Source: Heliocidaris erythrogramma | Taxonomy: Eukaryota; Echinodermata; Echinoidea; Camarodonta; Echinometridae | Assembly (NCBI GenBank): GCA_025617745.1 | Contig: CM046859.1 | Coordinates: forward strand, 21,143,073 to 21,207,072 | Length of the DNA stretch: 64,000 nt | Direction: 5' to 3' | Shown: in pieces, positions 3,457-62,831 of the stretch | Layout: every line of letters starts with the position of its first letter | How positions within the stretch are numbered: position 1 is the first letter of the stretch | Notes under the pieces: model-generated | What the model was told of the DNA's origin: nothing | Seen by the model: only the letters and a program-made list of their open reading frames with translations | The model's database searches: none | Made by a program: the position numbers and the translations under genes

Positions 3457-3627
3457 CAAGGGGCGTTGTGGCGTGCACCTGTAATCCAGCTAACAGTGGA
3501 AGTTATAAACTGATTCAGCGGACCCAGGTTCGAGACTGAGTCACGTCTTTCGGATGGTGACGTTAAAGGTCGGTCCCCAGACGTAAATAATCATATCTGA
3601 TTGATACACGTCTGTAAAAACCCAATT
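3457..3627 (+). mobile_element. SINE, second copy of the 7SL/Alu-like family
   Basis: This copy matches the element at 37556-37730 along its whole length with few differences. The head is at 3461-3490, the B box GGTTCGAGACT at 3527-3537, and the 3' hairpin arms CAGACGT and ACGTCTG lie near 3580 and 3608. The AC-rich tail runs straight into a CA microsatellite (3628-3665), so no target-site duplication can be read on the 3' side. A 185-bp element that also has CA/TG flanks follows immediately. Confidence 0.8.
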
Positions 3628-3665
3628 ACACACACACACACACACACACACACCCTCACACACAG

Positions 3666-3850
3666 GTTTACATGGCTTTACTTCCGAGGACAACTATTGT
3701 TCCTCTATTGTTACTCGTCCTCGGACAGTCGACGGAATAAAGCACAACTTGATTGTTGGACGTTCGAGGACTATTGTCCGGCTTCCGAGGACCATTGTTG
3801 TCATGATTTTTTTTTGTTCTCTGTCCGAAAATGTCCTCGGACATAATGCT
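3666..3850 (-). repeat. 185-bp CCGAGGAC-motif element, copy 1
   Basis: This is the reverse complement of 62908-63092, over the same 185-bp length with only about six mismatches and no indel seen. The core motif CCGAGGAC and its complement GTCCTCGG recur several times in both orientations, so the RNA or DNA can fold into several small stems. Both sides are CA microsatellite (3628-3665 and about 3858-3880). On the minus strand it keeps an open frame of about 61 codons, shared with the other copy. I do not recognise the family. It has no clear terminal inverted repeats and no coding similarity that I can name. Confidence 0.75.
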
Positions 3851-3949
3851 AAAAAACTCACACAGACACACACACACATACCCCAATGCTTTGGTGCGTA
3901 TGCATGATAGAATAATGAAGAAACCTATAGAGAAAACGATTTAAAGAAA

Positions 3950-37555: not shown

Positions 37556-37730
37556 ACTGGGCGTTGTGGCGTGCGCCTGTAATCCAGCTACCAGTGGAAG
37601 TTATAAACTGATTCAGTGGACCCAGGTTCGAGACTGAGTCACGTCTTTCGGATGGTGACGTTAAAGGTCGGTCCCAGAGGTAAATAATCATATCTGATTG
37701 ATACACGTCTGTAAAAACCCAATTACACAC
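37556..37730 (+). mobile_element. SINE with 7SL/Alu-like head and 11-bp TSD
   Basis: A 175-bp SINE is flanked by perfect 11-bp direct repeats ACATGGCTAAA at 37545-37555 and 37731-37741, which are its target-site duplication. The head (from 37559) reads GGGCGTTGTGGCGTGCGCCT and is followed by GTAATCCAGCTA. This closely matches the start of 7SL RNA and Alu, which have GGGCG, GGTGGC, GCCTGTAATCC and AGCTA in the same order. The Pol III A box is near 37567-37579 and the B box GGTTCGAGACT is at 37625-37635, the same B-box form as in Alu. The 3' half is unrelated to 7SL. It includes TTTCGGATGGTGACGTTAAA, similar to the GGATGAGACGTTAAA segment of V-SINE-type tails in aquatic animals, and ends in an AC-rich tail. 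The perfect duplication suggests a fairly young insertion. Confidence 0.85.
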
Positions 37731-38029
37731 ACATGGCTAAATCATAACAGCTGAGCCACTGTGAAATAATAATAGAACACGTGTTATATGTTTTTAGATA
37801 TACATGCATTAATATCCTTCATGCGATCTTCCCTGGCCTTGTTTTTTTTTTAAACTTCACATTCCCTCCATACGTGAGGTTTTTTTTATATACCGTGTAC
37901 TAGCAGCTGATGAAAGTAACTTCCTAGAGAAAGTAAATTGAGCGGGAAACTATCCGTAGACCCTGCATAGAACAGATATGAGAGTGAGAGTGAGCGAGAA
38001 ATAGTGTGTGCGTGTGGGGTTTGTTAAGG

Positions 38030-48064: not shown

Positions 48065-49590
48065 CAATAACATGTCCAGTGTGTCCCAGAAAAAAGTTCA
48101 CAGTTTGAAAAATTCTCCCCAATACGTTTTTCAAAATATTTAAAGGAAGTTATCAAACCTGTGGATAGCTTAGGGTCTCTTTTATCAAATGACACCAAAA
48201 TATCTAAAAATATTTTACACTTGAGTGAGCAAAAGCAATTTTGTGAAAGGGTGCGAAATAGAAAAATCAGACCTACAGATGTAAAAAAAAGTTATGAATC
48301 TTTTAATGGCATGTAGCATTAAAAACTAGGGAAACAATGAAAATTCAAAGAACAATTTGCAACTCAGTCATTAGTTTGTGACTTCATTGGCACACAACGA
48401 ATTATTATGTTTATTTGCGTAGTAAAAAAATTATTTTTTTTTGTCCAAGAATATGATTTCCTCATGACTTGAACCAACTTAATATATTTTTAATAATATG
48501 TTGGGGTTTTTTCAGGTGTACATTGATAAAGAATACGCTACACTTTGTAAAAATCAGGAAAATTTGATTGTTTAAATATAATAAACATACATAAGTATGA
48601 GTGATTATGAAAAGTAATATTTTGGAAACAATCTCAATATTTTAGGGTTCGTGAAATATGGTTTATACATGAAAATGGTTTATACATGAAAAAGCATATT
48701 ACTAGAGATATAACTTGGTTCAAGTTATGTGAAAATCATATTTTTGTACAATTTTTTTTTTATTATGAATGTAAACAAAATAATTGGTGAGTTGTGAGCC
48801 TAGACATCACAAACTCATAACTCAGTTGCCAATTTGCCGAGTGGTTTCATTGTTTTCCCCATAGTTTTCCATGCCACTAAAAAAAAGAATCATAACTTTC
48901 TTATTAGTTGTCCGATTTTCCTTAAACCTTTTTTGATCTGTATAGGTCTGATTTTACGGGGTAACCTCACCAGTCAGAAGGACTGCTATTCATAGGGACC
49001 GCTATCCATGACTAAATGAATAGCGGTTTTGTATGAATAGCGGTCTCTATGATTAGCGAGCAAACCATAGACAAATTACCTCGCTATTCATAAGGACCTC
49101 CCTTCATAAGGACCACTATTCATAACTATTCATAAGGTGTGCTATTCATAACGTGTGTTAAATGAATAGCGGTCCTTATGAATAGCGAGCGGACCCGGAT
49201 TTTACTGCTTCAATTAAAACCAAGTAATGTTTAAACTGGACTTACCTTTAATTTCACCTAGCTTGTTTACTCCATAATAAAGTTTTTATGCGATAAATCA
49301 GGACATACAGTGGACCAAATCTGTTCTTTTATAAATATAAGAATATTTCTCACATTTCTAGCCCTTTCATGACTCCCATCTTTGCCGATACTAGCCAGAA
49401 CAAAAAACAAACAAACTCAAGTATGGATTTTTCACCCTTTCACAAAAGTAGATCACTGAAGCGTAAAATACTGTGAGATATTTTGGTGCCAGTTAATGGA
49501 AGAGACCCTAAGCTATTTACAGGTATATGAATACTTTCTTTAAATATTTTGAAATATCTAACTGGGGAGACTTTTCAGCCGTCAATTCCA
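48065..49590. repeat. Large imperfect inverted repeat (fold-back element)
   Basis: The left arm (about 48065-48490) and right arm (about 48705-49590) are reverse complements. Matching blocks, as read on the right arm, include ACTTGGTTCAAGT (48715), CACAAACTCATAACT (48807), TTTCATTGTTTTCC (48845), CATAACTTTC, AGGTCTGATTTT (48944), CACCCTTTCACAAAA (49431), ATATTTTGGTG (49473) and GAGACCCTAAGCTAT (49501). The spacer is about 200 bp around 48.6 kb. The right arm is longer because it holds the 240-bp insertion described separately and an extra segment at 49206-49425. The 98- and 105-codon frames overlapping the left arm are not convincing as genes. Confidence 0.75.
48958..49197. mobile_element. 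240-bp motif-array insertion with 8-bp direct repeats
   Basis: The unit is flanked by identical 8-mers GATTTTAC (48950-48957 and 49198-49205), and it interrupts the right arm of the larger inverted repeat. Inside, the motif CGCTATTCATAAGGACC and its complement GGTCCTTATGAATAGC recur at least nine times: forward at 48985, 49001 (variant), 49082, 49102, 49116, 49126 and 49141, and reverse at 49016, 49032, 49162 and 49174. The ends are weakly inverted (CGGGG at left, GACCCG at right). No coding capacity. Confidence 0.65.
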
Positions 49591-52981: not shown

Positions 52982-53349
52982 GGTACTTTTTAGATTTATT
53001 TTTTTATTTTACGTACCATTATATGTTACTTATAGATTTTTATGCCTATTTTTTCCTTTTTCGTTCTATTGAATATAAAATATTAATGTCGACAGCATTT
53101 ATACATCATGTTTAATTATTACCTATACAGGGCATCTTAGCTGCAAAATAAAAAGCCGTATTTTGCACGGTACTCCGAATCTGTAACCGGAGCGGACAAT
53201 ATTGCCATATTGCCCTCTTCCGGGTTTTCCCCATATAGGCTGTACTAAAAAAACCTGCAATCAGAGGCTGACAGGCAAACAGACGTGTTTGTAATTGCTA
53301 CAAAATCGGCATAATTATACATGATACATGTGATATAGGTAATAATAAT

Positions 53350-53640
53350 AATATTGACTGGCTCTACTTTCGGGGAACATCGAAAATATTGCCGTTAAAA
53401 AAAACATATTGCCCTCGTCTTCGACTCGGGACAATATGATTCTGTTGCGGGCAATATATGTTGATATCCCCCTCAAGGCCAGTCAATATTATACAAATGT
53501 TTACTGCTTTGAGGGGCACGGTTAAAACTATGGCCCGAGGTGAGCTCGCAATGCCCCGGCCGAGACGATAGTCGAGGGGCATAGCACAGTTGAAAGATCA
53601 CCGAGGGCCATGGTTTTAAAGGTGAAGCGAAAAAAAAGGT
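53350..53640. repeat. Composite of short inverted repeats
   Basis: AATATTGACTGGC (53350) is answered by GCCAGTCAATATT (53478-53491), with CAATAT/ATATTG motifs between. To the right, GGCACGGTTAAAACTATGGC (53516) pairs with GGGCCATGGTTTTAAAGGTG (53606-53625) around a GC-rich, CG-containing centre that includes GAGGTGAGCTCGC. The 72-codon minus frame here is a by-product. The stretch is probably one or two small fold-back elements. Confidence 0.5.
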
Positions 53641-59161: not shown

Positions 59162-59482
59162 GTTCTTCCGAAGGCGCAGAATTCCGAATGTTTGTATTTT
59201 GCAAAGGGTCGTTACTCCGATGGTTCGTAATTCCAAAAATTAAATACGGTTCATAATTCTGAAAGTGAAAAGGGTTCATATTTCCGGAGGTTCGTAATTC
59301 CGGAAAGTTAATTAGGGCTCTATTGCATTTTCGGAACCTTCGGAATTATGAACCCCCTGCTATGGAAAATGTGTGTTTCGGAATTACGAACCTTTCGGAA
59401 TAATGAACCTTTGGAAAAACAAACCTTCGGAATAATGAACATTCGGAAGAACGAACCTTCGGAAAAACGAGTACCCCCTGAC
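59162..59482. repeat. Dyad array of GGTTCGTAATTCCGAA motifs
   Basis: The left half (59162-59330) carries GGTTCGTAATTCC-like units, for example at 59221, 59249, 59274 and 59290. The right half (59331-59482) carries the complement, CCTTCGGAATAATGAAC-like units, for example at 59340, 59376, 59397, 59427 and 59457. The whole forms a long imperfect inverted repeat built of 16-30 bp units. The 61- and 66-codon frames here (repeats of the FRNNEP type) are products of the array, not genes. Confidence 0.7.
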
Positions 59483-61829: not shown

Positions 61830-62363
61830 GGGTCGTCATCCTTTTGTTAAACTAGTATGTTACGAAAAATACACAATAAACACAATAAACACAATACAGG
61901 AAGGTTGAAAATAATATAATTGATCCCCCAAGTGTACTGACAAGTTAGGTATGGGGCATGCAAACCGAATCACCGAAACATTAATGATCCCCCATTTCAA
62001 CTTGCAGTATTCTTGGGGGATCAAGAAATACAATTTAAACACTATTAAATAGAATAACACGAATAAAGGAAGGAGTAAGAAAACAAAGTTTTAGGATTTA
62101 TTTCATATAGTGACGTTTACAAACAATAATCAATATAACCCGATTTCTTTTGAGACTTCTTGAAGCTCATATTTCACATAAGTTTACATACTTCATTTTC
62201 ATTTTGAGTGCATCATAAAACAAATAATTTTGTATGCCTTTTCGTTGAGGGTAGGTAGGTGTTGTTCTGTTTTAATTCAAACCCGTAGACGAAAATAATT
62301 TGGGATTATTCTACTTTCGATTCTACTCTCTTCATATGTAATATGTATGAATAAATAAATAAA

Positions 62364-62412
62364 TATATATATATATATATATATTTCCTCACAATATATA
62401 TATATATATATA
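62364..62412 (+). repeat. (TA)n microsatellites
   Basis: Two TA runs separated by TTTCCTCACAA, directly left of the hammerhead-bearing unit. Confidence 0.9.
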
Positions 62413-62635
62413 GTACAAATTTTAATAGGCTGGAAAGTGTTGCTTTAGAGACTTAGCTGGACAGTCTGTTTCGGCCGAAGCCTCATCAGCAACTAAATCA
62501 ACTTATACAATGTTTGATTAAAGTACAGCGTATATAAGACAGACATATAATTCTAGTGCAGTAAAGCAAGCAAACAAAAGATACACATGTGGCTTTTTAA
62601 TGGTAGAATAGAATTGGTAAAATATACATGTATAT
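62413..62635 (-). mobile_element. Hammerhead-bearing retroelement remnant (PLE or retrozyme-like)
   Basis: This is the unique sequence between two TA microsatellites (62364-62412 and 62636-62670), and it contains the hammerhead ribozyme. No reverse transcriptase or GIY-YIG frame is present in it or next to it, so it is either a non-autonomous retrozyme-type unit or the decayed end of a Penelope-like element. The boundaries are taken from the microsatellite edges and are approximate. The link to these families rests only on the ribozyme architecture. Confidence 0.45.
62450..62499 (-). ncRNA. Type I hammerhead self-cleaving ribozyme
   Basis: Read on the minus strand (5' end at 62499), this 50-nt stretch has the full hammerhead layout. 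Stem I 5' strand is 62499-62490. The core CUGAUGA is 62489-62483. Stem II is GGC/GCC closed by a UUCG tetraloop (62482-62473). GAAA is 62472-62469. Stem III is a single C-G pair (62468 with 62462) around a 5-nt loop. The cleavage triplet GUC is 62462-62460, and the stem I 3' strand is 62459-62450. Stem I forms 10 consecutive pairs, eight Watson-Crick and two G-U (57/92 and 52/97). Predicted cleavage is between 62460 and 62459. Known context: hammerheads with a minimal stem III occur in Penelope-like elements and retrozymes and usually act as dimers or in tandem RNAs. No second copy was seen in the window, so this is probably a lone remnant or one end of such an element. It sits between TA microsatellites. 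Confidence 0.85.
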
Positions 62636-62646
62636 ACATATATATG

Positions 62647-62677
<31 letters not shown>

Positions 62678-62831
62678 CTGTATATACAGTTCAAAAAGCT
62701 CTGCGACTGATATTAAAAATAGAGAGAGACACAGAATATATCACTCCGTTAGACATATCTCTCTCTCTCTCTATTTTTTAAAAAAAAAAGTTTAACTTTT
62801 TAATGGAGTTTCTTCATTCATTTATTGTTTG

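Follow-up and report, generated by a model that had tools for sequence, protein, structure and literature searches.

Minimal hammerhead ribozymes associated with Penelope-like elements (PLEs) reportedly cleave as dimers, as Lunse, Weinberg and Breaker are said to have found in 2017. The combination of a hammerhead with a Penelope fragment is already known from other animals; a literature search for echinoderm papers found none. In the extracts of the published papers on which the present comparisons draw, the hammerheads of PLEs are described as having little or no stem III and as being active as dimers, and the elements as having head-to-head pLTRs, tails and AT-rich targets (PMC7761336, PMC3846280, PMC6466107, PMC7229834), the role of the hammerheads being "still a mystery" (PMC7761336). 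In rotifers and other animals, pLTRs joined head to head, one of them bearing a tail, have been described in AT-rich targets (PMC3846280). In PAc, a Poseidon element of Anolis carolinensis (Penelope/Poseidon clade), both strands are cut and extended and two internal start sites are used; its hammerhead cleavage is dispensable for insertion, changes in the hammerhead having no effect on it, and RNA-seq revealed no ends at its cleavage site (PMC11167929).

The locus described here lies in a window (i.e., the whole stretch of 64,000 nucleotides that was analysed) of the sea urchin Heliocidaris erythrogramma. It shares with the minimal PLE hammerheads of Lunse, Weinberg and Breaker a short stem III, the association with a PLE and a palindrome capable of dimerisation; unlike those cleaving as dimers, the window copy is not in tandem. 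The family, known from genome copies, resembles PAc in the position of the hammerhead near the pLTR-ORF junction, in two internal reverse transcription start sites that would explain an optional tail, in the apparent cutting and extension of both strands, in the AT-rich targets and in the apparent insertion of unprocessed RNA (PMC11167929). With the Penelope elements of Adineta vaga it has in common the pLTRs, the head-to-head inversion, the optional one-sided tail, partial tandems and AT-rich targets, although the sequence differs and a literature search counted no mention of "hammerhead" in that paper (PMC3846280). Like animal non-LTR retrozymes, it carries a type I hammerhead in a small mobile repeat of low GC content; unlike them, it has no tandem direct repeats, the family has a coding partner, and stem I is uninterrupted, without a loop that could join loop-loop contacts (PMC7229834).

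A Minimal Hammerhead in a pLTR Fragment

The minus strand of the window at 62450..62499 is, by sequence, a genuine miniature hammerhead ribozyme of the minimal type I, recognised by direct reading, by a descriptor scan and by its genome copies. Direct reading along this strand gives the 5' strand of stem I (GATTTAGTTG, 62499-62490), the core CTGATGA (CUGAUGA, 62489-62483), stem II (GGC-TTCG-GCC, 62482-62473), GAAA (62472-62469), the segment C-AGACT-G (62468-62462), U at 62461 and C17 at 62460 (with GUC at 62460-62462), and the 3' strand of stem I (CAGCTAAGTC, 62459-62450). The initial annotation had claimed an intact core (CUGAUGA, GAAA and GUC), every position of which is indeed present, and direct reading likewise bore out a stem I of ten continuous pairs, two of them G-U wobbles, and a stem II, GGC-UUCG-GCC, capped by UUCG. 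The single pair that had been assigned to stem III is better described as two pairs (A15.1-U16.1 and C-G) with a loop of five nucleotides. The direct reading and the descriptor scan agree on CUGANGA/GAA, on A15.1-U16.1 and on H17, and the direct reading also on the open stem I, the closed stem II and a stem III of at most two pairs that mark the minimal type I form. On the established hammerhead numbering, we take the cut to fall at 62459..62460 on the minus strand, i.e., after C17 at 62460.

A descriptor with strict core letters, run on both strands of the window, found this single place, with ten stem-I pairs, whereas the best of 100 first-order Markov sequences with the same dinucleotide make-up reached six. 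The core pattern without stems (CTGANGAN{5,30}GAAA) occurs 14 times in the window, where 5.2 occurrences would be expected; since the core letters alone are common, it is the stems that carry the evidential weight. The minimum-free-energy fold contains stems I and II, without the non-canonical core, with a z of only -1.48, so that the fold energy by itself would have missed this hammerhead.

Rfam hammerhead models expect longer stems. Rfam gave 0 matches anywhere in the window at the gathering thresholds; with permissive filters, RAGATH-1-hammerhead reached 21.9 bits (E 0.2), its cut-off being 56.3, and the window hammerhead is thus filed under no Rfam hammerhead family. The initial annotation had named the lack of a covariance-model match and the lack of homologous copies as the two results that would speak against it: the former was observed at the Rfam thresholds, and homologous copies, at least 70, are present. 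The score below threshold might also suit a chance or decayed match, i.e., letters that fit a hammerhead but for which the element has no use, a reading opposed by the ten stem-I pairs against at most six in the random sequences.

Comparison with other copies indicates that the hammerhead lies in a 5'-truncated pLTR fragment of a Penelope-like element, without an ORF and without a second hammerhead, on the minus strand at 62410..62620. A diverged coding part may exist elsewhere in the window. The fragment (about 211 bp, its limits blurred to within a few bases by the TA repeats) is one pLTR end and finishes in a 3' end of the "short" type, TTTGTACTAT. According to the repeat analysis of the window, it is flanked by (AT)n repeats at 62351..62412, on its 3' side and overlapping its last bases, and at 62622..62686, on its 5' side. 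The fragment is apparently dead; a single pLTR could act only if transcribed, and then as a monomer, and most likely this copy does nothing.

Other repeats are present in the window. A dispersed repeat at 62876-63136 matches 3623-3881 in inverted orientation (91.6% identity), with TG or AT microsatellites adjoining, and protein-like fragments resembling those of this repeat also occur at locus L032. A 176-bp repeat pair (37559-37733 and 3461-3636) is recent, judged by its 97% identity, and long imperfect palindromes at 48285-48902, 59162-59452 and 53348-53492 (self-inverted matches of 66-72%) are perhaps foldback or MITE-like.

Copies in the Genome and the Coding Partner

The genome of the window itself (1,064,227,859 bases, i.e., 1.06 Gb, in 26 contigs) was searched with the pattern CTGATGAN{8,16}CGAAACN{2,8}GTCCA, which demands an intact core; such counts are lower bounds. 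At least 70 matches were found (38 forward and 32 reverse; 0 in the reversed control), all of them taken in by loci L001-L068. Many are not independent, L018/L019, L033/L034 and two places in L032 being duplicated DNA. Among 46 distinct hammerheads (L051-L068 left out), the stem II segment reads GGCTTCGGCC in 42, and the loop is AGACT likewise in 42; the conservation of the core is partly accounted for by a recent common origin. Since most copies carry both wobbles, the earlier argument that tolerated wobbles point to function is weak.

The copies are ends of a Penelope-like element and mostly run into (TA)n repeats, a feature that, among the classed copies, sets them apart from PAc. Eleven copies (L040-L050), all between 53 and 59.6 Mb of contig C11, have a different 3' junction, which is common also to L024 and L066; these look like a derived repeat that carries the hammerhead and has spread secondarily.

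The link with a Penelope-like element that had been claimed from the window is shown by locus L031, where a pLTR with a hammerhead, a single reverse transcriptase-endonuclease ORF and a second pLTR with a hammerhead follow one another, the two hammerheads being 2,519 bp apart and the element ending in TACTAT(AT)n; a single ORF between hammerhead-bearing pLTRs is the layout of a Penelope-like element. The frame contains one in-frame stop inside the endonuclease part, so that the locus, as it stands, is no working element. Cleavage is predicted about 155 nt ahead of the frame's first ATG, whereas in PAc the site is 26 nt inside the ORF (PMC11167929). Downstream of the 3' end of the element (from about 5720), L031 also contains part of another, canonical-looking Penelope reverse transcriptase.

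The element protein has 3,507 relatives at E up to 0.001, the best with 69% identity. In 50 homologues the reverse transcriptase positions are invariant, as is a C-terminal set of Y, Y.G, R, H and E, the motif residues of the GIY-YIG endonuclease that Penelope-like elements have at this end; Pfam gave weak matches to RVT_1 in 3 of the 50 and to GIY-YIG (PF01541) in 2 of the 50 (best E 0.015), and neither family matched the frame of L031 itself. A sequence search of solved structures gave 0 matches and NCBIfam only weak, unrelated ones. The structure model of the homologue P0002 (mean pLDDT 91.4) has telomerase TERT (3du5, E 8.3e-9) as its best PDB match in Foldseek; in the VIA-align rows the reverse transcriptases of a DGR and of a group II intron lead, with several TERT rows below. 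As judged from this model, the reverse transcriptase of the element is telomerase-like, as is that of Penelope-like elements.

No relative was found in viral contigs searched with alignment A1. Two contigs of a prokaryote genome collection contain relatives, with identities of 46% (L069, a MAG record, for the reverse transcriptase) and 50% (L070, a clam symbiont record); both were taken as animal DNA. The full descriptor found no complete hammerhead on either, and Rfam, applied to L031, L069 and L070, returned only weak microRNA models, on L031. On the 3' side of its ORF, L069 reads CTGACGA-GTGC-GTAA-GCAC-GAAAC, a hammerhead of which only the 5' half is present before the contig breaks off, and in which the letters of stem II (GTGC-GTAA-GCAC) are wholly different from those of the window family and still paired. 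This distant half hammerhead, together with the descriptor control and the at least 70 copies, led us to reject a chance motif, and a match without use to the element is very improbable.

The same copies bear on the link with retrozymes that the initial annotation had also proposed. In a retrozyme, a small non-autonomous tandem repeat, the hammerhead would process oligomeric RNA into circles, and a short copy within low-GC DNA that bears a type I hammerhead and no ORF would suit it. However, the window contains no tandem array, and among the 70 matches there is no pair in direct orientation 150-1000 bp apart: the four pairs less than 1 kb apart are all inverted, and in the two other close direct pairs (C7 and C19) it is flanking DNA that has been duplicated. 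Moreover, the family has in L031 a coding partner with the same ends, and most invertebrate retrozyme hammerheads are said, in the extract of PMC7761336, to form a stable helix III, against the two pairs observed here. Animal retrozymes are marked by direct repeats of 150-450 bp in tandem, each with a single hammerhead, and by plentiful linear and circular RNA; such repeats were found neither in the window nor among the 70 matches. A tandem retrozyme was therefore rejected, and the probability that we assign to a retrozyme origin is very low.

Unequal 3' Ends in Head-to-Head Insertions

Two alternative 3' ends occur in the family, a "short" one, TTTGTACTATAT(AT)n, and a "long" one, TTACCTACTATAT, about 63 nt further. 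In L031 the long site, shortly before the ATG, reads CCTACTAAACC, so that in both kinds of end TACTA passes directly into TA repeats. When 60 distinct hammerhead copies were sorted by rule, with duplicates removed and each arm of a pair counted, 26 ends were short, 16 long, 9 of the C11 type and 9 other. Outside the C11 type, 38 of 51 copies pass straight from either site into TATATA (26 short and 12 long, L059 being counted among the latter and yet as one of the 9 others in the tally).

The genome copies display the head-to-head inverted pLTRs, the optional tail and the AT-rich targets of Penelope-like elements. All seven inverted pairs among the 70 matches are head to head. When arms recognised from remnants were added and L033/L034 was counted once, 12 distinct pairs had both ends classed, and every one of them (12/12) joins a short arm to a long one, with 0 equal pairs. 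The arms were assigned visually, from printed sequences and token maps, and for the later ones the hypothesis was already known. These pairs are C1:68188225, C4:21553013, C4:21671000, C6:43701657, C10:2037323, C11:11113504, C11:15343946, C15:60884, C15:36088149, C16:11532093, C17:19465300 and C1:77749266. Ten are firm, among them that on C6, whose short arm was recognised from a remnant of 15 nt. Of the other two, C1:77749266 was classed from a remnant of 10 nt within a (CT)n target, and C1:68188225, whose ends are displaced by some 10-20 nt from the usual sites, according to whether an arm contains the GAGCACTTTCAGC segment. The incomplete pair C17:11374289, which would be the thirteenth, was left out of the count. 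In the C11:11113504 pair an unrelated insert interrupts the right arm (L037, 2960-3420).

If the two ends were independent (about 0.6 and 0.4, from 26 and 16), about half of the pairs should be unequal, and 10 out of 10 would thus arise by chance less than once in a thousand. Both arms of C15:60884 carry the variant CATTATGAAAAG, found elsewhere among the examined loci only in the duplicate L034, and they therefore probably derive from one source locus. The classed arms differ in this respect from PAc, whose strands are alike in start site in vitro (PMC11167929). The extract of PMC3846280 already states that a tail is optionally present on one of the inverted pLTRs; a limited search of the literature brought up no claim that paired arms invariably end at different sites, and the rule, which is countable, may be new.

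5' Ends and the Predicted Cleavage Site

Insertion of cut RNA should leave copies that begin at CAGCTAAG or end at GTC. Two patterns with exact letters and obligatory TA flanks, which miss diverged copies, were used for such footprints. For 5' ends between the core and the cleavage site in (TA)n surroundings, 19 rows correspond to 8 distinct places: one end is at the cleavage site, preceded by AAAGCAA, two are 3-4 nt, four 9-11 nt and one 25-27 nt upstream of it. No copy with a 3' end in the 30 nt that follow the stem III loop was found by the exact-letter pattern, run without a positive control. With these patterns no build-up of ends at the predicted cleavage site is seen among the genome copies, so that the inserted RNA was apparently uncut, in agreement with the anole element (PMC11167929). 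The lack of inserted copies ending at the site, and the single one of eight core-region 5' ends there, are also what a decayed motif would leave.

Eight solo (TA)n insertions (L001, L010, L029, L032, L064, L067, L022 and L025) start 1-6 nt upstream of CUGAUGA; for comparison, the eight distinct 5' ends above are spread over the 30-nt core. This cluster at the stem I edge could reflect a stop of the reverse transcriptase at stem I of a dimer; TA microhomology possibly accounts for some of these starts, and ascertainment is possible, since the genome pattern demands an intact core.

Discussion

The segment ACAGACUGU (62461..62469, minus strand) is self-complementary but for its central A. As stem III it provides two weak pairs within one molecule and eight (4+4) between two, with a self-duplex energy of -6.9 kcal/mol, so that the active form is likely a dimer, and dimeric cleavage through the palindromic stem III is plausible. 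Taken together, the data are best read, with a probability of about 0.88, as a dead PLE pLTR inserted in (TA)n, in a family that would insert by two-strand nicking and two-site priming and whose dimeric hammerhead would cut read-through RNA. The window fragment would have arisen by reverse transcription of element RNA into a (TA)n repeat. In AT-rich DNA the element protein would nick both strands, and each free end would then serve as a primer on the element RNA, at one or other of two internal UACUA sites that lie downstream of the hammerhead; the cDNAs from the two strands would meet head to head. The hammerhead alone would work poorly because of its stem III of two pairs, and two molecules paired through ACAGACUGU might make up an active double hammerhead, perhaps with the help of the protein, as for the anole element. 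Cleavage would divide multimeric read-through RNA into its units, but the inserted copies would owe their ends to another process.

The palindromic stem III and the absence of cleavage-site ends among inserted copies might also mean that the hammerhead is mainly an element of RNA dimerisation or RNP assembly, with cleavage secondary, and a protein dimer has been predicted for the anole element (PMC11167929). The catalytic core positions, needless for a mere dimer contact, are nevertheless kept, and we regard this alternative as unlikely. A further proposal, which we hold with still less confidence, is that every two-armed insertion is primed at two distinct RNA sites, one for each DNA strand, because a protein dimer would hold two RNAs linked as a double hammerhead. 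The unequal ends (12/12, 10 firm), the palindromic stem III, the absent cleavage-site ends and the 5' cluster at the stem I edge all fit it, without proving it. If this were true, the ribozyme would be part of the architecture of the insertion machine rather than the maker of the element ends. The hammerhead family constitutes a genome-wide record, and both of its patterns, that of the ends and that of the arms, lead to testable predictions on how the element inserts.
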